A DNA stretch of 64,000 bases from Physcia stellaris (lineage: Eukaryota > Ascomycota > Lecanoromycetes > Caliciales > Physciaceae): contig JABSSW010000027.1 of the NCBI GenBank assembly GCA_018902385.1, positions 527,014 through 591,013 on the forward strand, written 5' to 3'. Position numbers and translations under genes: made by a program. Below are positions 43,080 to 64,000 of the stretch, piece after piece (within the stretch, counting starts at the first letter, position 1; every line of letters begins with the position of its first letter). The notes beneath the pieces are model-generated. The model was not told where the DNA came from, did not search any database, and worked only from the letters and a program-made list of their open reading frames with translations.

Positions 43080-43968
43080 TGTTACGTGCTTACTGCTATG
43101 GCTAGCTAGTCACTGAGCAGAGCTAGTCGAAGAACAAATTTAATCGATTTTGACATTTGCTGTACTTAAATCAGAAATCATTCATAGAAACAATGCAAGT
43201 TTTTTACACATAACAAATGATAACATCATAACTGTCACGATTTTCAGTATACGTTTGACATCATTGATTGTCGATTATTTGAATAATTCATCAAACAATT
43301 GAGTTTGTCACAATCAATTCATTGTGTCAGCGACTCGTCAGCAACGACTTCATTATCGTTGAAAATCGTTTTTTTATTTCATTTCAAGCTATTCATGTTA
43401 TATCATTCACGATCGGATGAGTTAGCAGAACGTTCGAATCATAACGTGCGTGTTTATCAATTTCGATTTCTCGTTGTCAAAAAATCAGACACAGACGAGC
43501 TCGTCGTTTCATCGACTTTACAAAACAACTCAAATAACAACGTCGACGTCGACACGCAAAATTTTTTCGCAAATTTCAATCAATTTCTTTTTCATTCAGA
43601 CAATTTCATTTCGACAATTTCTTTTTCAAGTCAGCACGAGTCGAAATTTTCTGTAATCGATCGATAGTTAGCCTTTTACAATCGTCTAATCACGTCGTAT
43701 TACAATTCAGCTTGTTAGTCGAATTAATTCGACATTCAATCTGACGTGTTTTTCTCATCAATGCGTAAATCGAAAATCTGCTTCTATCGCATTGAGAGTT
43801 GTGATCAATAAAATGAATACTGTCAAAGAAGTGAGTTTCAAATCATTTGTAATACGATTCGATCAATTCAAATTCTCATCGTCTGTCATTTGTTTTTAAT
43901 TTCGAGTATTTATTGCTTTCAATTTCTTCAGAGAAACTCAAATTTCGCTTGTCATTTCTGTCGTAACA
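43080..43968 (+). repeat. 5' LTR of Ty3/Gypsy element
   Basis: It starts TGTTACG and its first ~110 bases recur at 63,893-64,000, including an identical stretch of nearly 40 bases that begins TTTGACATTTGCTGTAC. The right end is placed at CGTAACA (43962-43968), the inverted complement of the start, giving 889 bp. The right end is inference because the matching end of the 3' LTR lies outside the window. The differences between the two copies are mostly transitions. Confidence 0.75.
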
Positions 43969-44375
43969 TTTTGATTTATGACAGACAACGTCAATTAAAC
44001 AATCAAGTTGACTTTATTTAACACGTCAATTATCACGAGTAATTCAGTTTCACATATTTCATTTCAGTCAATCAGTCGAAAAACAATCATCATTGCGTGA
44101 TACATACATGAATTCATTTTAGTTGATCATTCGTCGACGAGAATTTTATCACAAAAAGTCATTCAAATCGTAATTGTTTTTGTTTTCATCAACTTTCGAC
44201 TTGCAAAACTTTCAGCTACTCGAAATATCAAAACGTCAGCGAAGTCAGTCGCTTATTCGTTCGAGTGAATTACTATCACGTCAATTTTTCGAAAAACAAT
44301 ATTACAATTTTATCAAAACATCGAAAATTATCGACAGACGTTTGCTTTTCGTAATTTCGTTAGTCGTCGATCATT
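43969..44375 (+). mobile_element. Leader of the Gypsy element, interrupted by insertion
   Basis: Sequence between the presumed LTR end and the start of the inserted block. No primer-binding site is recognisable after mutation. A palindrome-like GATCATTAGATTGATC at about 44,368-44,383 marks the apparent left junction. Confidence 0.4.
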
Positions 44376-44389
44376 AGATTGATCGTCGA

Positions 44390-44605
44390 GTCAAGTTTCA
44401 AGTTCGAATGCGTCGACTTGACTCGATTTGCAAGTCGAAGATTTCGGCTTGAGCTTGAGTTTGAATCAAGTTCAAGTTCTTGACACGTTAAAAAACTTGA
44501 GCTTGAATCAAGTTTCAAGTCAAAATGTCAAGATTTGATTTGAACTTGAATCAAGTTTCAAGTTTCGATGTCGAATTTGACTTGATTCGTCAAGAACTTT
44601 AGTTT
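44390..44605. repeat. Left-edge short-period repeat (CAAGTTTCAAGT-type)
   Basis: Many overlapping direct and inverted copies of TTGAATCAAG, CAAGTTTCAAGT and CTTGAGCTTGA. It is less mutated than the interior. Candidate subterminal repeat of the inserted element. Confidence 0.55.
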
Positions 44606-44895
44606 CATGACGTATTACATTATTTCGCGATATTTCTGATACTAGTTATAAATGCTTTTTCTCAGAATTTTCGAATTTTTTTTTTGCATTATTTCATATA
44701 GATCAAACGTGATAATCATAATATTATTTTGTATTCGAAATTATTATCAATTTTTCTCGACAATTTACTATTCTTTGAATTATATTACTTTTTGATTCAA
44801 GATTTTCATCGAACAGTTGCAATTATCATATTTGCATTATCTTTGTGCATTATCTTGAAATTTGATTTCGTGTTATATACAATTAGTGTTTCAAA

Positions 44896-47650
44896 TTGCA
44901 TTATCATTTTGCATTATTTTTATCATCTATTCAAATGTCAAATAAAATGTCGAATTTCGAATTGTTTTCGAATTTTTTTTCGTTTTCAATTCAAAATTTA
45001 GAAAACTCGTTCATCATGAACGACGATGACGATATGTCAATTGACAATTCTCAACAATCAATCATTTCAGTTTTTGATAATTATCACAAATTTCAATCAT
45101 CGATAATTTCAGTTTTTGATAATCGTCAAAATCAGATAATCAAATTGACGAAAAAAATTTCGAACAAAACATTTTGATTTTAGTTTTCATAGCAATAAAA
45201 AATATGTATTTTGAGAAAAAAAAAGCTCGAATGCTTTTTTAGAATGATGAAAACAAATCAGTTTTGATGAAAGTATCTTGAACAAAATTCAAACAAAATA
45301 CAATAATTCACATTGATCGAACAAGAAAAATAAAATTGTTTCATGCTGACAAGAATTTGTTCAAATAGCGAAAATGTCTGACGAAATATCAATGATTGCT
45401 TGTAAAACATGTCATAAAGTTCAACAACATTCGTCAAACGCAAATGACGACATCAACGTCATGAACAAACATTTGAAAAACGCAAAACATCGTTTTAAAA
45501 TTGAAAAAAAAAATCGAACAATGTCGCTTGACTTTCAGAAAATAATCGAATTTTTCGAGAATGTCAATGTAAATTTGTTGAATAATGCATATTGATAATG
45601 CATTTATTTACTTTTATTAAAAAAAAAGCAAACTCGATTCTCGTGCAACATTCGACGAGAAATTTTTTGAAAAACATTTAATCAAAATCTTTATTGCTTG
45701 TGATTTTTCTTATCGAACGATCGAAAACGAACATTTTCGAATATGTTTGAAAATGAATCGATTCATTTTGAAATTATCACATCGTATCAAATTAAATCAA
45801 TTTGTAACGAAAAATTATGAAAAAATTCGTGATCAATTGAAAGACGAATTGAAAAATGTTGATCGAGTTTTTATTTCGTTAAATGTTTGATTCAGTCAAC
45901 AAAAAATCGTTTATTTAGATGTGATGATATATTGAATGAATATTAATTTTCAATATCAAAAAAAACTTATCGATTTTGTTTCGTTAAGTGTTTGTCATGA
46001 CGAAAAAAAAATGTTAAATCTTCTGCTGTCAATACTAAAATTCTATGAAATAACAAAAAAATTAATGACAATCACGATTGATAATGCATTCAATAATCGC
46101 ATTCTCAAACAGTTATTGAATTTAACGATGATTGAAATGAGCATTAATTGAAATGTGAATCAAAATTTCATGAACTGTTTAATTCATATGTGCAATTTAA
46201 TCGCACAGAACTTTATCAACTCGATTGAAATCGAAATTATTAGCGATAATGTTATTCAAAATTTGAAAAATGATCAAATCGATGACATCGAACAAAATAC
46301 AAAAATGTTAAAAATCGTCAAGAAAATAAGTCAATTTGATAATGCAAAAAAATAATGCATTTGTTAACAAAATAATCAGATTCGTGTTTTGACGATTGTT
46401 ATCAATTCTTTTTCGCAACGAAAAATTCGCTTTGTGAAGTTACAAAAGAAAACAAAAATTAAACGTTTTCGAAAATTGAAACAAAATGTCAAAATTCGTT
46501 GAAATTTTTGTTATTTTATGATACGACGTGTCTATCAATTTCGACGATTCGTTGATAAATGAATTCAAAAAAATCGCAACGATGTCAAAATTGTCAAAAT
46601 TCGAATATCTGATGATGATTGAAATCAAATTCTATTTCTCGAAAACATGTTAAAAACATTTTACGAAATCACGTTGATTGTTTCACGAATCACGAACACT
46701 AATGTGCAAATTGAATTTAAAGTTTTCAATTTTTTATACGATCATTTGAATTATCTCAATGAAACGATACGACAAAATCAATGTTTCGACAAATCATTAA
46801 TTTTGACTGCTTGTGCGAAAATCATTCAAAAATTTTTCAAATATTATGCGAAAACAAAAAAAGATAATGAATTGATATACGATTTTGCTAATATTCTAAA
46901 TTCAATCAACAAGTTATCGATTTATGAAATCTGAAATGAAAATGACAATTTCGAAAAAATCACAAAAAAAAAAAGCATGCGTATATCAATGACGCTCGTA
47001 AACGATTTTTGAATTATTATCGAAATCATTATGATGACAAAATATATGATAATTTTCAACGCGTTATTTTTCAATCGTTCGATAAAAAAATAATGCATCA
47101 AAATAATGCACTGAAATTCAATTTAACAAAACAATAAACTTTTTTCTATTAATTCGATTTTGCGATCGAATCGAAAATCGAAACAATCACAAAACGAAAT
47201 CGAACGTTATTTCTCTATATCAATCATGAAAAAAAATTCTAATTGACAATATTGAAGCGATAATGTTTCGAACTTTTCTCGATTGACTCGAATGACGAGA
47301 AATATTCTGTTCTGTTTTGTTTCATCGATAGAAATGAAGCGAATTTTCAATTTGACACGTCGAATCTGTAAATATGATCGAGCAATGTTGAATCAAGAAA
47401 CGATTGAAAAAACGATGATGATCAAATATTATAATCGAACGATGAATGCAAAATTTAAAAATGCTGTTTCGAAAATTTGAAATTTAATAAAACGATGAAA
47501 AAACGAAAATAATGAAATTGCGATGAAAAATGCTTTTCGTCGTTCAGTAAAAAAAATGCTTCGTTTTATGATTTCAAAATTTAATAATAGACGATTTGAA
47601 GTGAAATTTGCAATAATCATCGATAATGCAAACAGATAATGCATAAATTA
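44896..47650 (+). pseudogene. Decayed hAT-family transposase
   Basis: A cut-and-paste transposase in pieces on the plus strand. A short acidic N-terminus (NDDDDMSIDNSQQS, ~45,018) is followed by a BED-type zinc finger at 45,374-45,500 (CKTCHK, then MNKHLKNAKH). The catalytic core includes YRTIENEHF (~45,710), a block with KLMTITIDNAFNN (~46,060-46,100), where the family has its TxDNASNN motif, and CLIHMCNLIAQNF (~46,180). The C-terminal dimerisation region is at 47,290-47,440 (VSSIEMKRIFNLTRRI, then ETIEKTMMIKYY), matching the hAT SSxxERxFS...L..dtie.l..lk pattern. Frames are broken by stops and short gaps, several at paired ATAATGCA motifs. It cannot be functional as it stands. Confidence 0.75.
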
Positions 47651-48132
47651 CTTGCATTCAATCAAAACATCGAAAGTATTAATTAGATTGCGCATAATCG
47701 CATATAATTGCAAAGTTTAATTTTCGAATCGTATAAACGTTGATTTTTCTTCTTTTTTTTTTTTTTCAATTTTCATTCTAGTATTCTAATTAATCTATTA
47801 TTAATAATTTTTTTGATAGATTATTTCGTAACGCAAACAAGCATGAATTCTATGAAATTTGAAAATTTGTATTTTTCATTTTATTGTTTGAATATATTAT
47901 TGATAATACAACAAAATCTGTTCGAAAATATTTTTCAACGACAAATTTATCAAAACATTTTCAAAGTTCAAACATTTTCGAAATTGGAAATTTCAATTCG
48001 CGAAACGATGAAACACTCATGAAAAACGAAATTGATATCGATTTCTCGATTTTGAAAAAATGTCTAAAGTCTGAACTGAATGACACGAACAAGAAACAAA
48101 AAAAAAACATCGATGACATGAATGAAAATAAT

Positions 48133-48440
48133 GCTTAATAATAATGCATTCAACGATTAAAAACTAATAATTGATTTGTTAAATACAGTGATCACGATGT
48201 CTCTGAACGATGTCAAAAACAAAAAAAATGAAAAAATTCAATTCGTTTGCTGAAAATTTCGAAAAAATCATCGATGAAATGAATCGAAATAATGCTTGAT
48301 AATAATGCATTTGACGATTAAAAGTTGAAAAATGATTTTTTAAATATCATGATCACGAAATTTCTGAATGATGTCGAAAACAAAAAAAATGAAAAAATCA
48401 ATTCGTCTGCTGAGAATTTCGAAAAAAATATTGATGATGT
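48133..48440 (+). repeat. Tandem duplication of a ~160-bp coding-like unit
   Basis: The segments 48,133-48,290 and 48,291-48,440 are similar. Each starts with an AATAATGCT...ATAATGCATT pair, followed by ATCACGA, then (A/T)TGATGTC and AAACAAAAAAAATGAAAAAAT, and the reading LNDV(K/E)NKKNEKI. A weaker third relative lies just upstream (~48,040-48,132). This looks like a duplicated exon-intron unit in the N-terminal part of the histone-bearing gene. Confidence 0.65.
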
Positions 48441-49168
48441 GCATCGAAAATCGCGAAAAATATCGAAATTTAACGATATTGTTGCGAACGAAAACATCGT
48501 CGCATTTTTAGCGATTCAAAAACGAATTGATCAATTTCAAATCAATAATAATTCGCGAAAAAAAGTCGTGAATAAACGAGTTAAAAATTCACGAAATAAA
48601 AATCGTGAAAATGATGTTGAAAAAAAATTCGCGCAAAAAAAAAACTTGTGATTTAACAAGAAAGTTTTCAAATCGATTTGATCGTTTTTGAAATTTCGCG
48701 TAAAACTGTTTCGAGTAATGTTTCGAACAAGAAATCGAAATCAAAAAAAATAATGCATATTGATAATGCATTTGATTCGCACAAATTGATTTTTATTGAA
48801 TCAAAAACAAAACGCGATTGAACGCTTTTAAAGAAATTCGAAAATATCAAAAATCGACTGATTTTATGATATCAAAATTGTCATTTCAACGAGTGATTCG
48901 AGAAATTTTGTTTGAAATAATTGATCAAAATGTCGAAATGCGAATTCAAACAAATGCTTTGAAAACATTACAAAAAACAATCGAAATTTATGTCATTGAT
49001 ATATTCGAAAGTAAATATTCTTTTTAGTTGTTCGAATTTTGAAATCATAATTTTATTGATACTTATTAGCTGCTAACAAATTAATTATTCATGCAAAACG
49101 AATAATTGCTCAGAACAAAAATATTAAATTAGTTAAAAAATTATTGAACATGTTAGTTCGTATATAGA
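48325..49168 (+). pseudogene. Histone H3/CENP-A-like fold, copy 1, with basic N-terminal part
   Basis: The frame at 48,818-49,024 reads NAFKEIRKYQKSTDFMISKL, then SFQRVIREI, QTNALKTLQKTIEIYVIDIF and ESK, the alpha-N, alpha-1 and alpha-2 helices of histone H3. After a short gap that looks like an intron, 49,070-49,168 reads IIHAKRIIAQNKNIKLVKKL, the H3 alpha-3 block (HAKRVTIMxKDxxLARRI in H3/CENP-A). The stretch between REI and the alpha-2 glutamine is 13 residues, against 10 in canonical H3; extended loop 1 is a CENP-A trait. Upstream, 48,325-48,660 encodes a Lys/Arg/Asn-rich tail (NSRKKVVNKRVKNSRNKNRE). The recognisable fold despite heavy mutation makes chance similarity unlikely. It is broken by stops and so a relic. 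Confidence 0.75.
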
Positions 49169-49179
49169 AATTAATGTCA

Positions 49180-50250
49180 TAAGTTTTTCATTGAAAAATT
49201 CAATCAATTGAAACTTTCAAAACGAATATTGATATTAATTATATTCGAATTTTGAAAAAATTAAAATTTAACTGAAATACATTTTTAGAATTAGAAATTT
49301 GAAATTCAATATAAACGTTTTTTCAATTCAAATTCAAACATATATATGATACAGATATTTGTTTTTAAAAAATATAAATTTGAAATTAAAATATTAACGT
49401 ACAATAATTTAAACAATTAATAAAATAAAAACGTACGAAATAATATGAATTGACATTTCAATATTATATTATATATAAATTATTATAAAATTACAAAAAT
49501 TGTCATTTTATTAATCATATGCGAAAATATAAAATATAATAAAATAATAATATAATTATAAATTTATGATTGTAATATAAATAATATATGTTTCAATAAT
49601 TTAAATGATTTATACAAACATATATGATATATTTGAAATAACATATCAAATCGTATTGTTTTGATTTATATATGAAATTAATCGAATAATATTTTATTTT
49701 TTTTTGTTTTTTTAAATCGATATTTTTTATTTATTTTTTATTTTGATGTATAATGTATTAAAATTATTTGTTTTCAATTATCGAAAATGAATTTCAACTT
49801 TATCAAAAAACAAATTTTTATTATAAATATTTGTTTTGTTTTATTTATGATGATTTTTGATTTTTTGAAAAATTAAATATTCGAATAATTCGATATTTAA
49901 TATTTTGTTGCACGCAATAATTTAATGCAACAATTAAAAATCATATTCATGTTGCGTTATTGAAAAAACATATATAAAATTCAAACAATTCAATAATTAA
50001 AATGAAAAATAATGATATAATGTATTGTTCAAAATTGACAAAAAGTCATTTATCATATTATTATTATTTCATGAAATAGAATTATAAATCGAAATCAATT
50101 ATAAACAGCATGAAAATCGACAATATTTTGTTGCGTCATATTTGACAAAAATTTTGTTTTCGTTTCATATGATTTTGATGATGATTCGACAACAAAATCG
50201 TTACAAATATACATAATTTGACATTTTGCGTTTTTTAAATATTATTCGAT
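49180..50250. other. Extremely AT-rich spacer
   Basis: Nearly only A and T with isolated C/G. No coding blocks or repeats are recognisable. It is either the oldest layer or a mutated non-coding spacer between the hAT/histone part and the tandem units. Confidence 0.6.
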
Positions 50251-50352
50251 TCAATTTTCATTTTACGTATAACAAATATCGATATGAAAAACAAAATTCA
50301 AACGCGAATTTAAATTATGTAAATTAATTATTCAACGAAATTAACGTTGTGT

Positions 50353-51650
50353 TTAAATGATTGTGACATTGTTGTTCACAAACATTTTCAAAATTTTTCG
50401 AACAAAATGAATATTTTTTGTTTGAAAAATTATTCGATTCGCATGAATCGTTTTTTTATAAATTATTTCATAAAAATTAATTATCAAAATAATACGCAAA
50501 AATAATATATTTGATTTATTTTTAAACATTTTTGTGACAAACGTTTCGATATTTTTTTGCAAAATTTCAAAAATCGATATTTGAATTTTGACATTTTTTT
50601 TTATGTTTTGCATCATTTTTTTCACAAATTTCGCGAACGATTTTTTGCAATTAATAATTCAATGATTTTTTGAAAACGTTTAATTTCGCGCAATGCGATC
50701 ATTTCGAATTTTGTTCGTTTGTGTTTTTATTGATGTGTTAATCAATATTCGATAACGCATGATTTGAATGCATTATCGATTTGTTCGTCATTTTTTTTTT
50801 AATCAATGATTTCAAACGTTTTGCGATTGATTTTTTGTTCGATTGAATTGCAAATTTGAACGCAAAAAATTTGAACGCAAAAAATTTGAACGCAAAAAAT
50901 TTGAACGCAAAAAATTTGAACGCAAAAAATTTGAACGCAATAAATTTGAACGCGAAAAATTTGAACGCGATAAAAATCAATTTTTGTGATTTTTTGATTG
51001 ACGTTTTGTTTTTGTTCACATCAATGTCATTATTTATTCGTCGATTTGTTTTTTTCATGCGACGTTTTTCGATTTGTTAATTTGTGCATTATTTTGACGC
51101 ATTATTCGATTTATTCAAAATTCGAATATCGTTATCGTCATTCGTTTCATTATCGTCAAAATTATTATCATCGAATTGATTTGCATTCAAATTTTCATTT
51201 TCATCAAATTTTTTTTCATTCGAAATATTGTTTTCGACATTTTTTTGATTTTCAAATTTTTGAATCGTTTTTTCATTGCGAATTTTTTTGAAATTTTCGT
51301 ATTTTTAACAATTGTTATAATTTGTTAATTTATGCATTATTTTCATGCATTATTTGATTTATCAAAAAAAAATTATTATTATTATTGATATTATTATTGA
51401 CAAATTTCATCATTTTTCGTTTTTTCAAATTTCGTATCGATTGTCGTTTTAAATGTTCGCATCACGTTTTTCAAAACATTAAATTTGAACGATTGAATAT
51501 TCGTCATAAACGAAACAAACAAATCAATTTTCGCGAACATAAATTTTGAAAATTGTTAATTTATGCATTATTTTCATGCATTATTATTTATTCGTGTTTT
51601 GAACATTTTTCGAATTATCATCAATATTATTTTCGTTATTTTCAATGTTT
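50353..51650 (-). pseudogene. Histone H3-like fold, copy 2, with long Lys-rich N-terminal region
   Basis: On the minus strand, 50,640-50,700 reads MIALREIKRFQKIIELLIAK (H3: [20 protein letters not shown]). After a one-base shift, 50,480-50,640 reads KKMMQNIKKNVKIQISIFEI, then LQKNIETFVTKMF, and after an intron-like gap IHANRIIFQTKNIHFVRKI (50,380-50,450). The upstream region (to ~51,650) is split by ATAATGCA pairs and encodes Lys/Asp/Asn-rich, unstructured sequence, including the FKFFA minisatellite. It resembles a chromatin protein with a long basic tail ending in an H3 core. Not intact. Confidence 0.7.
50852..50975. repeat. 15-bp minisatellite (TTTGAACGCAAAAAA)n
   Basis: About eight tandem units, the last three slightly changed. 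On the minus strand they encode a five-residue repeat (FAFKF). The equivalent place in unit B (54,610-54,675) has about three or four units, so the array expanded or contracted after duplication. Confidence 0.9.
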
Positions 51651-52479
51651 GTTTGAAAATCGACAACATTTAAAAATTGATTTTGAAATTTATCGATTCA
51701 TTTTGATGACAATCGATATTATTTGATTTTTCGAAAACAATGAATTCAATTTTGTCATTATTTGAATATAAATTGAAATTTGTTTTAATTAATGTTAATC
51801 AACGCATTATTTTTTTTATTTATGATTCATTTTTAAAATTTTTGAAAACATAAATTTTTATTTATTTATTTATTTATTTATTTTTCAAATTTTTTTTTGA
51901 TTTATTTGACAGTGCTCGATCGCGAAAACAAATCATTAAACAATTGAAAATTTTTTAATCAAAATTGTTTTCGAAATTATTTTATTTTTTGAAATTTGCA
52001 AATCGTTGACGCATTGCGAAAAATACAACGATGCGATCGATGATAAGAGAAATTGATTTTAAAATTAAATTTTTTGCGATTCGAAATATTGTTTTTAATT
52101 TCGAACGTTTAAAAAATTCGAATTTTTTGTCAAATCACGAAATTTTAACGTTTTTCGAGAACGATCAAAATTTTGAAAATCTACGAAAGAAAAAAATCAT
52201 TTTTCAATTTTGAATTCGAATTACATAGAGTTCATTGAACGATATTAAATTTCAATAGAAATTATCGATTATTTTCGAGTTCACGAGATTTTGTTTCATT
52301 TTTTATTCGAATTTTATCAATCATTAACATTTATAAACGCATTTCAATGTTGCAAAATCGACAAAAATCGATTTTTTTTTCGAAAAAAAAAATTTTTAAC
52401 TTGTTTGAATATAAATTAAAATGTTTTAATTTAAAAAATGCATTATTTTATTTATTTATTATTGTTACAAATGAATATT

Positions 52480-52800
52480 CAATAAATTTTGCGTTTTATC
52501 GAAATTTGTTCAACAATCAATAAATTCATTTCATTGCGATTCAAATTTGTTTTATTTGCAAACGTTGCAAAAATATTGATGCGATCGTGTTGAATGTTTG
52601 ATTAAATATTTTGCATCGAAATATTGTTTTTAATTTCGACGTTTAAATTTTTTCGATAAACGCAACAATCGCGTGTCGACAATTTTCGATCGATTTTTTA
52701 TAACATTTTCAATTTTTTTTTTTCGATATTGATAAATCATTTCGCATATTCGATTATTTTTTTGTGTAATATTCGTTATTTTTCGTTTCATCATTTACGT
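52480..52800 (-). pseudogene. Unrecognised conserved reading with a Cys pair (unit A; also unit B)
   Basis: The minus strand reads VDTRLLRLSKKFKRRN, then KQYFDAKYLIKHSTRSHQYF and CNVC. The same reading is kept in unit B at about 55,600-55,790 (AKNLIKHSTRSHRYF). Shared stop codons lie where Trp codons would be expected under the local mutation pattern. I do not recognise the protein. Confidence 0.35.
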
Positions 52801-53099
52801 TGTGAATATTTTAAGATTGTATGCATTATCATATCGCATTATCGATGTTAATCAATTTTATTGCAAATAAATTTTCAAATTTGACGATTAAACATTTTTT
52901 TGTATTTTCACGTTTGTTTTTTTTTTCGTTTTCAAATATGATTCAATTGTTTATCGCATTATGTTTGTTAATGATTTCAATCACAAATTTGTTTTCAATT
53001 TTGTCGATTATTTCGTATTGATTCATATTCGACGTACGTTTTGAACATTGTTCAATGATGATGTATTATTTTGTCGCATTATCGTGTTGATATTTACAT

Positions 53100-53960
53100 T
53101 CAAAATGTTCGAATTCGCACAATTTACATTTGTTAAAATTTATTCGACGAATTCAAAAAATATTGTTAATCGCGAAAAAAAAAAACATTGATCGAATATT
53201 CAAATCAAATTGTACAAAACACAAAATGTCGACAATGTCGTTGTGTTCAAATTCAAAAAAAATTTGATAAAAATTGTTGTTTGATTTGAATTTGATGAAA
53301 AAAATCGCAAAATTTTGAAAAAAAATGATAAAAAAAATGTTCGATGCACGTATTGAAAACGACAATCATGATAATGCAATCGAATAATGCATATAAAAAT
53401 TGCGATTTTTAATTAATTTTTAACGTGTTTTTTGAAAAATGAAATTTATCAACAAAACAAAAAAAAATTCGACGAACAAACACGACAAAACGATAAAAAA
53501 AAATGCAATCGAAATCATACGTCGAACAGCAAATTTCGAATTTGCGCAACAATCGATGAATTTTCAATGTCAAAATTTGTCAAAATTTGTTGATTTCATT
53601 AATGATTCATTTTAATTTCAAAATGAAAACATTGAACGCGCAAAACGCAATAAAAAAATATTTGTATTCAATGATGAAATTGATTGCGCAACGCGTTTTT
53701 TATGATGATATGAAAATTCGCGCATTGAAAACGACGAATTTTGTTAACGATAAAAAAATGCGAAAAACAATTAATGATTTTGTTTTTTCGCACAATGCGA
53801 AAAATCGAAATATTAAAATCGATTTTTTCAATGCGATCAAAAAAAAAAAAATGCAAAAAACGACGACGATGACGAAAAAAAAAACAACGTGAAAAAATTC
53901 GATGACGAAAACGAATTCGAAAACAACGAAAATACGAACGATAAAAATTTCATAATGTTC
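53100..53960 (+). pseudogene. Unrecognised plus-strand reading with CxxCxC (unit A; also unit B)
   Basis: The plus strand reads NTKCRQCRCVQIQKKFDKN at about 53,205-53,265, then MKLIAQRVFYDDMKIRALKT (53,680-53,740) and an acidic end (DDDDEKKNNV, then ENEFENNENTND). Unit B keeps the same words at 56,265-56,320, 56,702-56,770 and 56,900-57,000. The Cys cluster could bind a metal. No family is recognised. Confidence 0.35.
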
Positions 53961-53999
53961 GATTTTTAAATTGATTAAATAACGAAAATGCATTATCAT

Positions 54000-56900
54000 C
54001 ATACATTATCATTTAATTTTCAATTCACGCATGACAAATATTGATATGAAAAACAATTCAAACACGAATTCAAATTATGTAAATTAATTATTCAACAAAA
54101 ATAACATTGTGTTTAAATGATTGAAACATTGTTATTCACAAACATTTTCAAAATTTTTCGAACAAAATGAATATTTTTTATTTGAAAAATTATTCGTTTC
54201 GCATGAATCGTTTTTTCATGAATCATTTCATAAAAATTAATCATCAAAATAATGCGCAAAAATAATGCATTTGATTTATTTTCAAACATTTTTGTGATAA
54301 ACGTTTCGATATTCTTTTGCAAAATTTCAAAAATCGATGTTTGAATTTTGACATTTTTTTTTATATTTTGCATCATTTTTTTCACAAGTTTTTCGAACGA
54401 TTTCTTTGCAATTAAAAATTCAATGATTTTTTGAAAACGTTTGATTTCGCGCAATGCGATCATTTCGAATTTTGTTCATTTGCGATTTTATTGATGTGTT
54501 AATCAATATTCGATAACGTATAATCAAAATGCATTATCGATTTGTTCGCGATTTTTTTTTTAATTAATGATTTCAAGCGTTTTGCGTTTGATTTTTTGTT
54601 CGAATTATTGACAAATTTGAACGCGAAAATTTTCGACGCAAAAAATTTGAACGCAAAAAACTTGAACGCGATTTGATTTAATTGTTGAAATTTTTTGATC
54701 GACGTTTTGTTTTTGTTCATATCAATGTCATTATTCATTTGTCGATTTGCTTTTTTCATGACGCGTGTTTCGATTTGTGAATTTGTGCATTATTTTGACG
54801 TATTATTCGATTTATTTGAAATTTGATCATCATTTTCGAACTCAATATGAATAATGACAATATCATGAATATCGAATTTGTGAACAATTTTGATTTCATT
54901 TTCATCAAATATTTTTTCATTCGATTCATCGTTTTCGACATTTTTTCGATTTTCAAACATTTGAAATGTTGATATTTCGAATTTTTTTTGAATGTTTTCA
55001 TTTTCAACAATTGCGATGATTTGTTAATTTATGCATTATCGTCATGCATTATTCGATTTACAAAACGAAAAATCATTATGATTATTAATATCAACGATTT
55101 CATCATTTCGCGTTTTTTCAAATTTTTTATCATTAACAAATTCAATAAACATTTCAACAACGATTTTCGATTTAAATTTTCGAACAACGTTCGCAAAAAC
55201 GTTTCAATTGATCGACGAAATATTGATTGAAAACGAAACAAACAATGCAATTTTTTCAACAAAACGTTTTATCATTTGTTAATTTATGCATTATTTTTTT
55301 GCATTATCATTTTTATCAATGTTCACATTTTTCGTTGAAATATCATCAACAATATTTTCATCGTTTTCATTCATCGTCATAACAATAACAATTGTTGATT
55401 GAACGTTTTGAAAATTTTTAAATTTTGAATGAACGTCGAAATATTTTAAATTTCGTTAATTTATGCATTATTTTCATGCATTATTTTATTTATTTAATGT
55501 TGTTACAAATGAAAATTTAATAAAAATGTCATTGATTACAAAATTAAACATGCGATGAATCGATTGTTGTTCATCAATCAATAAATTCATTTTTTCGCGA
55601 TACAAATTTGCATTATTTGCAAACGTTGCGAAAATATCGATGCGATCGTGTTGAATGTTTGATTAAATTTTTTGCATCGAAATATTGTTTTTAATTTCGA
55701 CGTTTAAATTTTTTCGATAAACGCAACAATCGCGTGTCGACAATTTTCGATCGACTTTTTATAACATTTTCAATTTTTTTTTTTTCGATATTGATAAATC
55801 ATTTGTCAAATTTGATTATTTTCGTGTGTAATATTCGTTATTTTTCGTTTCAAAATTGAATGCATGATCATATCGCATTATCGATGTTAATCAATTTTAT
55901 TGCACACAAGTTCACAAATTTGACGAATAAACATTAATTTGAATTTTCAAATTTGATTCATTTTTCGTTTTCAAATATGATTCAATTGTTTATCGCAACA
56001 CGTTTGTTGATGAATTCAATCACAAATTTGTTTTCAATTTTATCGATTAATTGATATTGATTTATATTCGACGTACGTTTTGAACATTGTTCAAAAATGA
56101 TGCATTATTTTGTCGCATTATCGTGTTGATATTTACATTCAAAATGTTCGAATTTGCACAATTTACATTTGTTAAAATTTATTTCACGAATTCAAAAAAT
56201 GTCGTTAATCGCGAAAAAAAAAAAAATTGATCGAAAATTCAAATCAAATTTTACAAAACACAAAATGTCGACAATGTCGTTGTGTTCAAATTCAAAAAAA
56301 ATTTGATAAAAATTATTGTTTGATTTGAATTTGATGAAAAAATCGTAAAATTTTGAAAAAAAATGATAAAAAAATGTTCGATGTTCGTATTGAAAACGAC
56401 AATCATGATAATGCAATCGAATAATACATATAAAAATTGCGATTTTTAATTAATTTTTAACGTGTTTTTTGAAAAATGAATTTTATCGACAAAACAAAAA
56501 AAAATTCGACGAACAAACACGACAAAACGATATCAAAAAAAAAACAATCGAAATCATACGTCAAACAATTAATTTCGAATTTTCGCAACAATTAATGAAT
56601 ATTGAATATCAAAATCTGTTAATTTTATTAATGATTTTTTTTAATTTCAAAACGATAAAAACATTGAACGAACGCAAAACGCAATAAAAAAATATTTGTA
56701 TTCAATGACGAAATTGATCGCGCAACGCGTTTTTTATAATGATATAAAAATTCGCGCATTGAAAACGACGAATTTTGTTGACGCGATAAAAAAAATGCGA
56801 AAAACAATTAAAAATTTTGTTTTTTCGCACAATGCGAAAAATCGAAATATTAAAATCGAATTTTTCAATGTCATCAAAAAAAAAAAAATGCAAAAAACGA

Positions 56901-57036
56901 CGACGATGACGAAAAAAAAAACAACGTGAAAAATTTCGATGACGAAAACGAATTCGAAAATAACGAAAATACGAACGATGCAAATTTCATAATGTTCGAT
57001 TTTTAATTTGATTAAATAACGAAAATGCATTATCAT
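54000..57036. repeat. Histone-bearing repeat unit B
   Basis: Second copy of unit A, in direct orientation, immediately adjacent. It lacks the 0.8-kb segment present at 51,650-52,440. See unit A for the matched intervals. Confidence 0.8.
54113..55500 (-). pseudogene. Histone H3-like fold, copy 3, with long N-terminal region
   Basis: The clearest histone copy. A single minus frame (54,113-54,463) reads MIALREIKRFQKIIEFLIAK, KSFEKLVKKMMQNIKKNVKI, QTSIFEILQKNIETFITKMF, ENKSN, then an intron-like insert and TIHAKRIIFQIKNIHFVRKI. Spacing from the VRE-equivalent to the alpha-2 Gln equals that of canonical H3 (QDFKTDLRFQ against QNIKKNVKIQ). The insert sits between the positions of FEDTN and LCAIHAKR of H3 and itself contains an inverted ATAATGCA-type pair. 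Upstream frames give a Lys/Asn-rich tail (AKRLKSLIKKKIANKS), a short FKFFA repeat, an acidic part and an unrecognised block (EMFIEFVNDKKFEKTRNDEI). Confidence 0.75.
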
Positions 57037-57204
57037 GATGCATTATCATTTGTTTGTGAATAATGATCAATTTTTTTTTTTTTTTCAAATTGCATTATCA
57101 AAATTCATTATTCATTATTCATGTTTAAAATTTTTTGTAATATTTTTTTTTTTTCAGTAAAATTTGTAAAAATAAAATTTATTTTTATTATTTTTTATCA
57201 ATAG

Positions 57205-57415
57205 TATTTCAAATCAAATCAAGCTTTTCAAATCAAATTTCAAATTCAAAAAATGTTTGAATTTGATTTGACGTCAAAACAAATTTCAAATCGAATATGT
57301 CGATTTGAATTTCGATTTTTTCGAATCATTAAAATCAAAAATTTGAATTTTACGAAAATTCAAAACAAATTTCAAATTTTCATTTCGAAAATTTGATTCG
57401 ATTTTTTCGAACTTT
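57205..57415. repeat. Right-edge short-period repeat (CAAATCAAATTTCAAAT-type)
   Basis: Repeated words such as AAATCAAATTTCAAATTC and TTTGAATTTGATTTG just before the gag start. It mirrors the left-edge repeat after C-to-T conversion of CT and CC. Candidate right terminus of the insertion. Confidence 0.45.
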
Positions 57416-57449
57416 TCGTTTCGCAGAACGTTTTTATCAAGTCAACGAT

Positions 57450-58685
57450 ATGTCAATAAAATCAACATCGTCAAGCAATATGATTGACATTGATGACAAT
57501 ATCGACAATGTCGTTATCGATTTCGTTGTGCAAGCAGCAATTGACAACTCGATGCAAAACATGATTAACACAATGTTTGATAAAATGCAACAAATGATCA
57601 ACGATCAGCAAAATGTGATTGAACTCGCTGAATCAACAAAACAATCAAAACAATCAAAACAATCAGAATCGTCAGAATTAATCGATTTCGTTGACGACAA
57701 TACTGCTGACGATTTCAATCGCTTTGTAGTCAAAAAGTTAAAATTTTTTGATTTCAATCACGATGACAAGTCAGCGTCAATCGATTCGTCACTAAAAAAT
57801 ATCAATGAAGACACGATTTTTCGTGACGTGCACGTTTTCGTCAATCGAATTAAAAATTTCGTCAACACACAGAATGTCGAGTTGATTCGTGATAATTTGT
57901 ATCGATGTTTAAAAAGAAATGTTTTGACTTGACATATTTCGTTGTTGACAAACATGAAAAAGCGTTTGTTAACAATGAATATCGAATTAACTGAGTGAAA
58001 AAACGCGTTGATAACAAAATTTCGAAAATCAACATTCAGAATTATGAAAACGTTTGTCACAAAACGATACATTATGCAAAACGCGTTCAATCAACGATTA
58101 TCTCGTGATTATGTTCAATTCGTCATTCGATTAGACAAGTCGATCGAATTATCGTTGTTCAATCAGTTATTGCAAATTTGAAACGATTTCGATTCAAATT
58201 TTCAACTGCATGTTACGAAATTCATTCACGTCACTAGAATGAATGATTTTCTTCGTGAATTAAATGATAAGAAAAATTCATGATGAAAACTTGTCGCTAA
58301 TCAATTCAATTCGTCACGACGTGATAATCACAAAAAATAAAAACAAACAAGAACGCGAAAGCGATTTCAACAGCGTGATATGTTAAATGTCAATCGAAAT
58401 CGCAATTATCAATTCGATAATTATCAACGTTTTTATCAATTTGAATTTCAGCAAGCATTCGTGTCGACTGACTTTCAGAATTTTTTTAATCAATTTCAGA
58501 ATTTCAATCAATATCAGAATCGTGTTTATCAAAATCGACAACAACAAAAAAATCAATATTCAAACGCATCGTTTCAACAATTGACTTTGTTTGTCTCGCT
58601 GTCATTGAAACAGATAGTTGAATCGTCAAATCGAAACGTCGCATCAAACGCGTTCGATTTTTATCAACAATTATCGTCACAATAG
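57450..58685 (+). pseudogene. gag: Ty3/Gypsy gag (decayed)
   Basis: The open part (57,450-57,932) has an Asp/Ser/Gln-rich start and then KKLKFFDFNHDDKS and EDTIFRDVHVFVNRIKNF, the fungal Gypsy capsid block preceding an LRG-W-type motif. Beyond a TGA that replaces the expected Trp, the frame continues HISLLTNMKKRLLTM, ERYTxExA-type KRYIMQNAFNQRLSRDYVQF and HVTKFIHVTRMNDFLREL, then a Gln/Asn-rich nucleocapsid-like tail (58,380-58,685). Several stops are TGA or TAG at Trp positions. The capsid would package element RNA; not functional. Confidence 0.75.
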
Positions 58686-58939
58686 CAACGTTAATCGTTT
58701 CGTTCGTTTGATTTCAACAAACAACGATCGACAAAATTTTTTTACAATACAAATCAAAAAAATCAATCATTCGAAATTGAGAAAATTTTTTTCGAAAATT
58801 TTTGACAAACGTATCAAATCGATGAAACGAACGCGCATTTTGATCAAACTAATGTTCATTACGATGACGATAATTATTTTGATGACGAATTCAACGAAAA
58901 CATCAACGAATCAAAAATCAAAACTCATTACAATTTGAA

Positions 58940-61900
58940 ATTACGCAAGTCAACTATATCAGTCAGTCAATTACAATGATTATTTCAGATGAAATGTCAC
59001 AATAATCGTTGACGAACGAATTTTCACTTGTCGACGTTGCGAATCAACTTTTTACTCAAACAACAAATGCGCACAGACACGTCAGACAATGTCGTGTCGA
59101 TTCAATTGTCAATTTCAATGCATCGAAAAATGTTTTCGTCATTGAGTCTATCGTCAACAAAAAGCACAATAAGAGTTACGATTTTCGATCGTGACATTAC
59201 GTTTGATACATGTCAACATTTCGTCAGAATTGTCAGTTGACGAATTCTGTCTAAATAACGATATTATCATGTCAATTGAAAATAGACGATACATTTTAAA
59301 TCGATTATCAAAGATTTTCGTTTTTAAAATCAGCGAGTCGATTCGAATACGAAACATCGATACGATTTGACACGATATTTTCGAATACGTTATGATCGAC
59401 TTTTATATATTTGAAATGACAATCGTTGACACGTTTGTCAAAACTCATTTCACACGTGAAATTCATCTGATTGACAACTTGTCAATCAAAATATCAATCA
59501 AATGAACGTCCTAACATCAAAAAAGATGATTATAAATGTCGACAAACAAATTGTCACTATAAACAGTTGCGACGTGACAACGAAATTGCATGTCATTTTT
59601 CGTGACAGACGAATGAATCGAGTCGTCAAATTTTTAAAACAATTAATCATATTTTCGCATATTCACATAATTGTATTCGTCAAGATTCGCGAACAAACAC
59701 TATCAACAAATCGTGATTATTTCTTTCATTCATTAAAAAATAATCGATTAAAAGCAAAGGATGATTTTTTTGCTCACATCATCGATGTCAATTTTATTGT
59801 CGTTCAAGTACGTAATTCGACAAATCAGTCGATTACAATATCGCGCAACTTCAAACTAAATAAATTGAACGACTACAACGAAAAAATTGCTTTTTAGTCG
59901 CATCGAAGAATCGACATTTAATCGTCAAATCATTTGATTGATTAGAAAAATTGTCAAATGAATCATCGTTGATGTAATCGAATTAATCGCTTTTGAGAAA
60001 ATTTTTCACGAATTTATTATGTCAGCTATTCAATCGACGTCGAGAAATTTTTCAATTTCTAACATATCGAAAGTTACGAATTTAACATTCGTTAGCATTA
60101 AAAACACACGCTGTTTAATGACATTATCATTTACGACGATGAATTCGTCTATGTTAAACTATTTATCGTTGCGAAAATCTATTTCAACATCTCGACAAAA
60201 AAAAACGACAAATATCGTCAACATATCGAAAAATCAATATCAATAAATACGATATTTGACGCGAAATCAAATTCAACACGCGTTTTCAAATTAAACAAAC
60301 AAAATCGCGATGTAATTGACAAAAATTCGACGAATTACATAAACAAAACGTGAATCAATTACACAACTCATTTCGTACGCATATTTTGCTTTGAATATGA
60401 AAAACGATTTATTTATCTGACAAATCGTCGAAACGCAAGAGCAAAATAGTAGTCGATATTCGAAATCTCAACAAAATAATTCAACGCTTATTCGACGCAA
60501 TTTCAATTGATTTGATATTTGCTTAATCGAACGTGTTTACATCAATATTTTCGATTGTACGTTTTTTTTCATCAATGACTAATGAAAATTGCAAATCGTC
60601 ACAAACTTATCGTTGTCACTCATAAAAATTTAAAATGTAATCGTCGAGTTTTAAAATAATTCTGTTTACGTACAGCGAAAAAATCGACGACATATTTCGC
60701 GCATATCGAAAGATTGCTCGAGCATACGTAAACGACATTGTAATGTTCAATCATTTTTTGAAAAACATTTACGTCATTTCAATTGAAAATGTTTTCGCTA
60801 TTCGTCAAATTCAACATAACATTGAAATCATCAAAGACGTATTTAGAATACTTTATTATCTCATTGTTGAAACAAAAAAATCGATCGATTCGATCTGTCA
60901 ACGACACAAAAACTAATTGTCATTTTCAAATTACGATTTTCACGCATTTTCAAAAATCTAGAAATTTATCTAAACATGATCGATTGATTACGAAATTTTG
61001 TTTTTTATTACGCTCAAAAGTCCGACGCTTTCAACAAACGAAAAATTACGCTGTTAAAAATCTCATCGTCGAATGTCGACAAAATTCGTAAAAATTTCAG
61101 CAAACGTATTTCGATTCACAATTCGACGAAAACAAAAAAAAATTCATATCGTCAATTACAAAATTCGTTCAATCGCTTTAGCCGACTAATACATCAAAAT
61201 TCTAATCGAATATTGTATCGTTTGTACGTTTGATAAATCGCGCAAAGATTTCGACGTTAAACGTATCATTTTAAAAACGACAAAACAAACAATCGTTATT
61301 CAACGACGTCGATTTGAAAACGCTGAAATCAAATTATCGTCAAATTCCCAAGCGAAAAAACGTCGAATCAATCATGTTTTTTAGTCGAATGTCGACGTTT
61401 GTTGAAAAAATATTGATTTATCGAGTTAAAAATATCGATCCGATCTGATTAATGAAACGAATTAAACATTTAATTGAAACATTTAAACATGTTACAATCA
61501 TATATATCGATCATGTTGTCAATTTTTTCATAACTCGTCAAATCAAACTTATCACAAGAATGCGAATAAATTAAATATGAAACTAATACGCGTTTCAACT
61601 TATCTATTTCAGTTTCGATTAGACGTACGTTACAAACTCGACAAATCACACATCATATTTGACGTTTTTAGTCGATTGTTTATCAATAACTGTATGTTTA
61701 ACGACAAAAACGATGATTCGACATCGAGAAAAACATGATAGATTCAAAACGATGTCATCTATGTTTAAATAGCGATTTGATAACAATGTTCGAAAATTTC
61801 AAATTAAAATTTCGACAAAATTATCAATTTGATAAAATTTGAATCAAAAATTTCGACGATGCCGAATCTTTTAACGCGCGATTAGTCAAATTTAAAAAAA

Positions 61901-63410
61901 AAGTTTTGCAAAAATCTTTCGACAGTTCAATTACACAATCGTCAATTACAAAAAATTTTTCGCAAACGACAAAGCAATCAATCGACGTTTTGTTTAATCA
62001 ACAGTCGATTACATCACAATTTGTCACAAAAATCTGTCGCAAATATCACAAATCGATCGTCAAATTAACAATCGACGAATGACATTGATTTTCAATTAAT
62101 CGACGAACTAATTTATCATATTCATTTAAAACAATGACATGAATTTGAACAATTTAAACTATGTATATTCGAAATTTGTCAACAAGACGTTTTCAAGACG
62201 ACGCACGACGACAATTTTCACGTCGAATCATACTATCGACGACTAATGAAAACAATATATATGTCAACAATGTCGAGAAAATTTGATTTGTGACACGTTT
62301 TTCAGCTCAATCAAATCAAACGACATAATTCGTATGTTGAATTAACGTTCATTTTCACGTCGTCATTATTTTTTCATACAATAACGATTTAATTTCGTAC
62401 GACATTATCGAAAACAACACTTTACTCAATTTGACGAACAAAATCTCACGTCAATTACAAGTCATAATCAAAACAGATCGATTTGTCGCTCAATCTAATC
62501 AATGCTGTTGTTGATAAATTACCGTTAACGAATCGAAACATTTCGAAAATCATTATTTTCGATCGAGACAGAAAATTCACGTCAAACTTTAATCGGGTCT
62601 TTGCTAAATTAGACATTATTTTATTTACGCAGCGCTTATCACGCACAAACAGACGACTTGTCAGAGCGATCAAATCAAATTTCGCGAAAATCGTTTTGCG
62701 ATATTTAATCACGAAAAATTCGAACATCGAAAAAATCTTGTCAATTTTGCAAACTTAATCAACAACGCATTTAACGTTATCATCGATCGTTCATTCAACG
62801 AGACGATTTATGAATTCAAATTACGCGATGTTTTAATCGTTTTAATTCGCAAGTTTATCAAAATCGATTTATATCGGGATTTCGAGCGCTTTCGACATCA
62901 ACGAAAAGCAATCGATGTTATTTCATACGTCATGACTAAAATCAAAATCATATACGATTCACGTCACACTTTCTTTTGCTCAAGTCAGACGATAAAATTT
63001 ACTTACGATTACACAAGAAATACATTCTATTTAGTAAATTTAACGCAAAGCGTTCAATCAACGCATCGATTCGTTTCTTGTCAAACGACGAATAAAACGT
63101 CCGATTTACGAACCAGATTTGTCATTTGTTCGCAAATTCATTTCGTCATTTTCGTCATTCAGTTAGAATCGACATCGTCAGAAAAACTCTTATCGACGTT
63201 TCAAATCTGATTTTCAGATGAAATTGAAATAAAAAAAATGTTTAATATCGAGTTCGAAAAAACTTCGAAATAAAATCATAATAGACAAACGTTTTCGAAT
63301 TTACAACAAAATTATTGTGACAATATTTGATACGCTGAAAAGACCTGAAAATCAATTTACGATTTGCTTTTAAAAACATTGTCAAACTGATCGAATTTAT
63401 CGATTTTGTG
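58940..63410 (+). pseudogene. pol: Ty3/Gypsy pol with chromodomain-like tail (decayed)
   Basis: Order seen: a protease/linker region (59,010-59,900); reverse transcriptase with the active-site box read as YVNDIVMF at 60,725-60,748 in place of YVDDIVIF; an RNase H end reading RYKLDKSHIIFDVFSRL (~61,630-61,680); integrase with KIIIFDRDRKFTSNF and FAKLDI (62,540-62,620), where the family has KVIISDRDRKF; the post-integrase block MTKIKIIYDSRHTFF and IHFVIFVIQLES (62,932-63,180); then QYLIR-stop-KDLK with NIVKLIEFIDF (63,320-63,410), a chromodomain pattern (QYLVRWKGY) with Trp changed to TGA. Integrase-last order and the chromodomain mark a chromovirus. Many stops; dead. Confidence 0.75.
60725..60736 (+). 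other. Mutated RT active-site box (YVND)
   Basis: TAC GTA AAC GAC. The first catalytic Asp is Asn, explained by one G-to-A change in an ApG context, the same context lost across the block. Confidence 0.8.
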
Positions 63411-63892
63411 AAAATTACGAACGACAACATTTTAACAATGATGATTTGCATCAGTTTTTCGACGTATCGTTTCGTCGATCGAAAAAAACTACGATCATTC
63501 AACAATTCGGAAAACAGTATCAAATCAACTAAAGATCGTCGTCGTTTTGAAAAGAAAAATTGTCATTACGTCGCTTTTTATCAGAATTACGTTAATCATT
63601 TTTGTCGCGACAAAGTCGATAATTATCGCGACAAAATCAGATCGACAGTTTCGCTCGCGAAAATCACATGTATCGCGAGTGTCGATTAGCACGTCGTCGT
63701 CGTCATCGAATAATCATTACTATCAGATCGATAGTTACAACTCAAGAACTAACGTGAAAATCAGAACTAAAAACTGAAAAAGAAATACGATTAATGAAAC
63801 GATCGACAAAACTTGTTATACGTAATCCGGCTACGCATTATTAATATTTAGTTCAGCGAAAACGTTTCGATTTTTTCTTGTTTGTCGACATT
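63411..63892 (+). other. Gypsy 3' untranslated region
   Basis: Sequence between the chromodomain-like end and the 3' LTR. It contains short frames but nothing recognisable; no clear polypurine tract survives before 63,893. Confidence 0.4.
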
Positions 63893-64000
63893 TGTTACGC
63901 TTACTAAGCTACGACTAGTTAGTCACCGAACAAGACTAGTCGAAAAGCAAATTTAGTCGACTTTGACATTTGCTGTACTTAAATCAGAAATCATTCATAA
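63893..64000 (+). repeat. Start of the Gypsy 3' LTR (cut by window end)
   Basis: Begins TGTTACG and aligns with the first ~110 bases of the 5' LTR at 43,080, with mostly transition differences. It confirms that 43,080-64,000+ is one element with internal insertions. The target-site duplication cannot be checked because the far end is outside the window. Confidence 0.85.

Follow-up and report, generated by a model that had tools for sequence, protein, structure and literature searches.

Transposons of the hAT type that carry histone H3-like genes have been described from fungi in two reports. In Pyrenophora tritici-repentis, an H3L-bearing hAT of 5.6 kb has been reported (Manning et al. 2013, PMC3538342), in which a hAT transposase and a single H3-like gene, H3L, lie inside TIRs. 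Its copies are nearly identical and are accompanied by ESTs, and the H3L genes are mostly intact. The authors place H3L, which has insertions in its N-terminal tail, in neither H3 nor CenH3, and they judge a smaller form of the element to be non-autonomous. Elements of 9.5–9.9 kb have been published from Pseudocercospora fijiensis and five relatives (Dhillon et al. 2019, PMC6710886). The P. fijiensis element features a hAT domain, TIRs, an 8-bp target duplication, and one or two H3-like sequences, and its copies are found only in AT-rich blocks, destroyed by RIP. According to the authors, the H3 arose from the housekeeping gene as a retrocopy without introns, and passenger capture of genes by hATs is also documented in that report.

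The element described below, from the lichen fungus Physcia stellaris, was compared with these systems by published description rather than by sequence. It has in common with the Pyrenophora element a hAT transposase plus an H3-like gene inside TIRs, and with that of P. fijiensis the hAT domain, the TIRs, the 8-bp duplication, the destruction by RIP, and the AT-rich location. At 12.4–15 kb, it is larger than either. It contains three H3 genes of two distinct types, which appear from their sequence to have introns, while the P. fijiensis genes are intronless and Pyrenophora has its single H3L. The two copies in one P. fijiensis element differ by a 16-residue insertion; in Physcia, a read-through intron of 18 codons sets H3-B apart from H3-A. 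RIP acts on CpA in P. fijiensis and on CpC/CpT in Physcia, where the copies examined are all RIP-damaged. An earlier note on this DNA knew of no previous description of such an element from fungi, a view that the two publications overturn. Among the matches listed from the open-access literature searched, no title or opening of an abstract describes a hAT with an H3 gene from Physcia or another lichen. What is new is the class Lecanoromycetes and the co-occurrence, within a single element, of two divergent H3 types with introns, together with hints of one old family.

The window, meaning the whole stretch of DNA that was analysed, comprises 64,000 nt of P. stellaris (assembly GCA_018902385.1, JABSSW010000027.1, positions 527,014–591,013 of the forward strand). 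Its three H3 copies are parts of one transposon at 44,375–57,411 (+), not chance neighbours. This hAT-type copy holds one H3-A gene, two H3-B genes, and the hAT transposase. Its left TIR, TAGATTGATCG, lies at 44,375, an end set by two empty sites and by TIR matches. Its right end was set by aligning against intact right ends, and the terminal stretch on the right (about 45 bp, TIR included) is absent. The left flank (43,802–44,374) is another repeat, which runs uninterrupted at C22:5.1–6.4 kb (93% identity) and C22:483.9–485.3 kb (92%), the two empty sites. The same repeat resumes in the right flank (57,412–64,000, +) and reaches the contig end; two pieces of this flank, 57,398–57,451 and 57,453–57,942, match L074/L075 separately. 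By eye, from reading frames alone, the repeat appears to be Gypsy, and a Pfam search of seven right-flank frames gave no retroelement match. The earlier placement of the H3 copies "inside a Gypsy leader" is therefore upheld as to nesting in another repeat but not as to the identity of that repeat.

The hAT family to which the window copy belongs has many copies in the P. stellaris genome. The TIR consensus TARAYTGATCG occurs at both element ends, and the end pattern matches the genome 72 times, compared to 4 times for a reversed control. Six full-size copies have both TIRs. The two sides of the 8-bp target duplication agree at 8/8 positions in C4 and 7/8 in C16, and at 4/8 in C44, 2/8 in C65, 1/8 in C47, and 1/8 in C5, which represents no duplication in these last four. 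MITEs of 430–436 bp have the same ends as the full-size element, and in the eight analysed the duplication matches at 8/8 in three, 7/8 in four, and 6/8 in one. The chance of a match of at least 7/8 is about 0.002 per pair, given the base composition assumed for the AT-rich flanks. The C6 copy has lost its left TIR, and several copies sit at contig ends in AT-rich DNA. By hand tabulation, the left end, the transposase, H3-A, and two H3-B genes follow one gene order in 13 loci. Three further loci (C48:296.5 kb, C30:554.5 kb, and C46:10 kb) have left-end and transposase sequence and gave no H3-A match, which means that H3 is not in every copy.

The transposase gene of the window copy (approximately 44,887–47,480, +) has several exons, with stops in its reading. 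Its C-terminal dimerisation domain at 47,256–47,477 matches PF05699 over the cut-off (E 1.4e-5), as does a transposase reading joined from other copies, in which X replaces the stops (E 1.3e-6). The BED zinc finger profile gives a weak match below the cut-off (E 0.2). No transposase homologue was found at E 1e-3 among 8000 protein database candidates scored, perhaps because of RIP-biased words. The TIRs, the 8-bp target duplications, and the dimerisation domain support assignment of the element to the hAT superfamily.

H3-A consists of a histone-fold exon at 48,815–49,010 (+), a predicted GT...AG intron of 59 nt at 49,011–49,069 (+; 12 copies compared), and a last exon at 49,070–49,167 (+) that encodes helix 3 (IHAKR...). 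The core histone profile PF00125 matches at 48,800–49,027 with E 2.3e-12, and an open stretch at 48,322–48,648 may be part of an N-terminal extension of H3-A. The H3-B genes lie in tandem units at 50,249–54,011 (−) and 54,011–57,051 (−). The first copy (50,353–50,726, −) is frame-damaged, and its PF00125 match (50,353–50,658, −; E 1.9e-3) falls below the Pfam cut-off. The second copy (54,113–54,487, −) matches at 54,113–54,475 with E 8.5e-8, so that two of the three window copies exceed the cut-off; in a PDB search its top match is histone H3 (best E 1.5e-12). An AlphaFold model of H3-B from a nine-row alignment is helical, at low confidence (mean pLDDT 51). The H3-A intron falls after Phe-Glu and one base, and both H3-B copies have a putative 54-nt intron, located by reading the alignment of copies, that agrees with it in codon and phase. 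The intron-start GT is kept in 2 of 12 H3-A rows and 1 of 20 H3-B rows. Most of the 34 histone matches in the genome are copies of the hAT element. Less damaged relatives from metagenomes keep the histone fold, with three of four tested over the PF00125 cut-off (P0019, E 5e-19; P0003, E 2.7e-17). The earlier note had described three H3-type folds with an intron-like gap at the same place, two of them in tandem units and all adjoining a hAT transposase. Each of these points is borne out, and the transposase proves to belong to the same element as the H3 copies.

The copies examined have RIP-like C-to-T damage and stop codons in the transposase. At sites on which the copies agree, the base after a C is A or G in 4206 of 4207 cells (copy × site), and about 12.9 kb contains no CpC and two GpG dinucleotides. 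The RIP-like mutation targets CpC and CpT and keeps CpA, a direction that belongs to the host, not to the element. The best transposase copies have three in-frame TGA codons within a 241-residue part. RIP here creates stops mostly out of Trp codons, so that an open frame is a weak sign of selection.

Over 183 nt, H3-A and host H3 have 96 positions in common and differ by 39 RIP-direction changes, no reverse transitions, and 48 transversions. This share of transversions is close to that in Table 1 of the P. fijiensis report (100 in 378 positions, deRIP consensus; PMC6710886). A fresh copy of host H3 is ruled out, as 48 of the 87 differences are transversions. The element histones thus have the look of old genes, not of recent copies of host H3, and the two types share an intron position. 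By codon position, the transversions between H3-A and host H3 number 17/5/26 (chi-square p 0.001), a test that takes in constraint on the host branch. The comparison of H3-A with H3-B avoids this, and gives 46 transversions over 183 nt at 15/9/22 (second versus third position p 0.029; overall p 0.063, borderline). The tests of H3-B against host H3 (0.067) and of H3-A against CENP-A (0.10) do not reach 0.05, and the five near-fixed transversions between the two H3-B copies are too few for a selection test. Because transversions avoid second codon positions, constraint on the H3 proteins before decay is suggested, borderline within the element. A clade of element histones has support of 98/97 with RIP-damaged rows and 61/73 with less damaged rows; because support falls in this way, it may be raised artificially by common composition or by long branches.

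The reading given most weight, with a probability of about 0.78, is that the window holds one copy of a hAT family with three divergent, intron-bearing H3 genes, a judgement on structure and age that leaves function aside. Working at the short inverted ends, the transposase would have produced the 8-bp target duplications, and, judging by the common ends, it probably also moved the MITEs. The histone genes would have travelled as internal parts of the element, descending from an H3-type lineage apart from recent host H3 and CENP-A. They may have been retained as proteins for a time, before RIP-like C-to-T change at CpC/CpT destroyed the whole element.

Whether the histones were put to use is where the main rival differs, its structure being the same. 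In this passenger transduplication, which is the published view for P. fijiensis, a hAT captured a host H3-type gene and carried it without use until RIP set in. This account is given somewhat less than an even chance. It agrees with the RIP damage of the examined copies, with the passenger capture documented for hATs (PMC6710886), with the three transposase loci that gave no H3-A match, and with a GC-normal H3-like host gene on C52 that could be a relative of the donor. It is harder to reconcile with two diverged H3 types in the same order at 13 loci, and with the number of H3-A/H3-B transversions and their third-position excess. The histone exons of the tandem units (91–95% identity) are also far more alike than an upstream stretch (62–73% in four 100-bp windows), a weak argument for kept histones because the units are likewise 83–98% alike in their far part.

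The preferred but weakly held reading of function, tentative at well under even odds, is that intact ancestors expressed H3 variants, which, in partnership with host H4, would have modified nucleosomes to the element's benefit, e.g., against silencing. Observation covers the structure of the element, its copy number and gene order, the pattern of mutation, and the divergence; past expression, selection, and a chromatin role are what we infer for the element histones. More doubtful still is a single ancient hAT family, spanning at least Dothideomycetes and Lecanoromycetes, that kept H3 variants as selected cargo to build its own nucleosomes, with the published captures as members. If the histones were such long-kept cargo, a core chromatin protein would be serving transposons as a tool, and a direct test could be made with those fungal elements that still have intact copies, e.g., that of Pyrenophora. 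If they were passengers, hAT capture of H3 recurs across fungal classes, or it predates by far the one capture, about 100 million years ago, proposed for Mycosphaerellaceae.

A selfish centromere element carrying CENP-A genes is very improbable. Loop 1 of H3-A is three residues longer than in canonical H3 in the alignment, as in CENP-A, and the position of several copies at contig ends in AT-rich DNA would suit such an element. However, H3-B has the canonical loop length, a CENP-A of the host itself lies at C7 (by frame reading), and the CENP-A clade (support 100/99 and 95/98) excludes H3-A in both trees. The CENP-A origin of H3-A hinted at by loop length is supported by neither tree, and of the earlier suggestion that a mobile element captured an H3/CENP-A gene, what stands is H3-type genes between the element's own ends, with TIRs, target duplications, and one order in 13 loci. 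The other earlier suggestion, of mutated host H3 duplicates swept into an AT-rich island, fits the presence of H3-type sequence in a repeat-rich island but deserves almost no credence, being contradicted by the element boundaries, target duplications, empty sites, and constant gene order, and by the transversions, which account for more than half of the changes relative to host H3.

The C52 host gene, G7Y79_00052g087890 of the P. stellaris genome, is a divergent H3-like gene with a long loop 1 and normal GC. It has 50% identity over 74 residues to P0019, the H3-A relative. Alignment of the hAT element to 10 kb around this gene aligned no part of it. By eye, the 3′ end of the gene looks interrupted. 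Its first intron opens with the words GTAATGC-N6-GTAATGC, as do the element introns.

The hAT DNA transposon at window positions 44,375-57,411 (here the element) is a decayed H3-bearing hAT, and H3-bearing hATs are already known in fungi. The three H3-type folds described in the earlier note proved real, with PF00125 (Pfam core histone) E-values of 2.3e-12 at 48.8 kb, 8.5e-8 at 54.1 kb and 1.9e-3 at 50.4 kb; in the PDB, the 54.1-kb copy matches histone H3 best. The same note's remark that it knew of no such fungal element gives way to publications of 2013 (PMC3538342) and 2019 (PMC6710886). What is new is an H3-bearing hAT in another fungal class, the Lecanoromycetes, to which Physcia stellaris belongs, and one with two old, intron-bearing H3 types.

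There are 34 histone matches in the P. stellaris genome (44 Mb, 147 contigs). Among 16 regions fetched around such matches, 15 align with window ~44,375-57,411 (matches of at least 150 bases), while L038, which holds the H3-like gene of contig C52, has no alignment to the element at that threshold. The left end in the window is TAGATTGATCG, and the right ends of other copies terminate in its near inverse, CGATCAGTCTA. This end pattern has 72 genome matches, compared to 4 for a reversed control. Six full-size copies, 12,416-14,956 bp long, have such an end on each side; their target duplications agree at 8/8 positions on C4, 7/8 on C16, 4/8 on C44, 2/8 on C65, and 1/8 on both C47 and C5. A seventh copy, on C6, has lost its left terminal inverted repeat. 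The element's end pairs also bound eight small derivatives (MITEs) of 430-436 bp, with 8-bp target duplications matching at 8/8 positions in three, 7/8 in four and 6/8 in one; they lie at C14:569,995, C19:26,406, C30:162,927, C30:290,787, C40:12,077, C42:65,685, C81:56,087 and C82:69,196. The element's transposase contains a hAT dimerisation domain, and a 533-residue stop-free open frame at C42:290,792-291,379, with 25% identity to part of it, is possibly an undamaged hAT relative.

When several comparisons are cross-tabulated, the order left end, transposase, H3-A and two H3-B is common to at least 13 loci (C27, C59, C5, C30, C4, C2, C47, C6, C65, C16, C72, C31 and C44), with one H3-B truncated by the contig start on C2. 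Since one comparison scored 40 of its 42 candidates and another 40 of 58, these copy counts are lower bounds. At C48:296.5 kb, C30:554.5 kb and C46:10 kb, transposase sequence accompanies the left end but H3-A has no match, and these three loci count against a constant gene order; the copies on C53 (without H3-B), on C107 and at C2:1,525 kb are truncated by contig ends. The sequence to the left of the window copy recurs at C22:5.1-6.4 kb and C22:483.9-485.3 kb, where the element does not interrupt it. At these empty sites the match to the window stops exactly at 44,374 and is followed by ~75 bp not in the window and then by the right flank; within that flank, both C22 copies have another ~210 bp that the window lacks at 57,451. 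About 45 bp is gone from the right end of the window copy.

The decay resembles RIP. Across window 43,000-64,000, CpC is lost and CpT strongly reduced, while CpA and CpG are kept. In ~12.9 kb of the element there are 0 CpC and 2 GpG, with CpT at 0.21x and CpG at 3.3x expectation; the 6.6 kb to its right has 13 CpC. Where copies agree, the base after C is A or G in 4206 of 4207 cells (copy by site, 14 rows). The absence of CpC and depletion of CpT indicate that mutation prefers these two dinucleotides, whereas in P. fijiensis it is directed at CpA; a CpT bias is reported for Magnaporthe, Botrytis and Sclerotinia (PMC4352252). Such mutation creates stops mainly at Trp codons, and open frames are thus little evidence on selection. 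The best transposase copies have three in-frame TGA within the 241 residues searched.

H3-A, on the forward strand, reads as a fold exon and a final exon separated by a 59-nt GT-AG intron. H3-B lies on the reverse strand in two copies, within tandem units 50,249-54,011 and 54,011-57,051, and its frame reads through an 18-codon stretch, interpreted here as a 54-nt intron that shares its codon and phase with the intron of H3-A. The intron GT is retained in 2/12 H3-A rows and 1/20 H3-B rows, and the protein letters of P0003, a metagenome relative, would imply that its version of this intron looks intact at the 3' end. In our reading, both types once spliced would align to H3 without a gap at the intron site; the exon pattern of host H3 suggests that its own intron lies elsewhere, after AIH. 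A 15-bp unit is arrayed in 7.8 tandem copies at 50,852-50,968, within the first unit, and the second unit's version is shorter and worn (54,613-54,669).

Judged by their sequences, H3-A and H3-B are two H3 types, both old and both with an intron. In an alignment of 183 bases, H3-A differs from host H3 at 87, comprising 39 RIP-direction changes, 0 reverse transitions and 48 transversions (17/5/26 at codon positions 1/2/3; p = 0.001 overall, 0.0002 for second versus third). H3-B against host H3 gives 42 RIP-direction changes, 3 reverse transitions and 46 transversions (18/8/20; p = 0.067 and 0.036). Transversions number 49 for H3-A against C52 (16/8/25; p = 0.012 and 0.005), 55 against host CENP-A (21/11/23; p = 0.10 and 0.058), and 46 between H3-A and H3-B (15/9/22; p = 0.063 and 0.029). 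Of the five comparisons only this last escapes host-gene constraint, and its constraint signal is borderline. The element histones may possibly have a working role.

Among the best 120 of 4648 metagenome matches, P0005, P0007, P0010, P0011 and P0013 have 86-94% identity to H3-A, and P0016-P0019, P0022 and P0029 have 66-72%. Of four tested, P0003, P0018 and P0019 pass the PF00125 cut-off, P0064 being the fourth. P0019 shares 50% identity with the C52 protein (74 residues), 51% with host H3 (63 residues) and 46% with CENP-A (72 residues). In a 26-row tree the element histones form one group (98/97), separate from host H3 and CENP-A; two of the rows have deviant composition, and the program warns of long branches. 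In a 21-row tree with only the less damaged element rows this support falls to 61/73, and the CENP-A clade (95/98) still leaves them out. A second, divergent CENP-A-like gene lies at C6:415,593-415,998, besides the normal CENP-A at C7:99 kb.

Manning et al. 2013 (PMC3538342) describe a Pyrenophora hAT whose H3-like gene belongs with neither H3 nor CenH3. In P. fijiensis, Dhillon et al. 2019 (PMC6710886) report hATs that hold one H3-like sequence or two, a 16-residue insertion setting two copies apart, and they find the same H3 amplification in five other species; in their interpretation the sequence is a retrocopy of housekeeping H3. They tabulate 100 transversions in 378 positions, about the share in the P. 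stellaris element. The features of the published H3-hATs match H3-A and H3-B, which hints at a single family without demonstrating it. The 2019 report of no similarity to the Pyrenophora element counts against this, unless similarity is hidden by RIP and age.

The genome has 336 occurrences of the paired words RTAATGC-N6-RTAATGC, versus one for the control. Among the places listed, nearly all are within element copies, many at exon junctions, and each of the eight MITEs holds one; they were noted in window 44,375-57,411 and its copies and at C52:303,913, C25:251,038-251,217 and C19:456,008. These last three pieces are undamaged, normal-GC DNA akin to parts of the element, possibly donors or relics of it, and in them GTAATGC-N6-GTAATGC would form the start of introns. 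The paired words look like a single intron start that recurs within one transposon family. The H3-like protein spliced from C52 is a 100% match to NCBI G7Y79_00052g087890. This GC-normal, divergent gene (C52:303,510-303,779) looks interrupted at its 3' end, and metagenome protein P0124, 88% identical over 36% of the query, looks like a relative that continues further.
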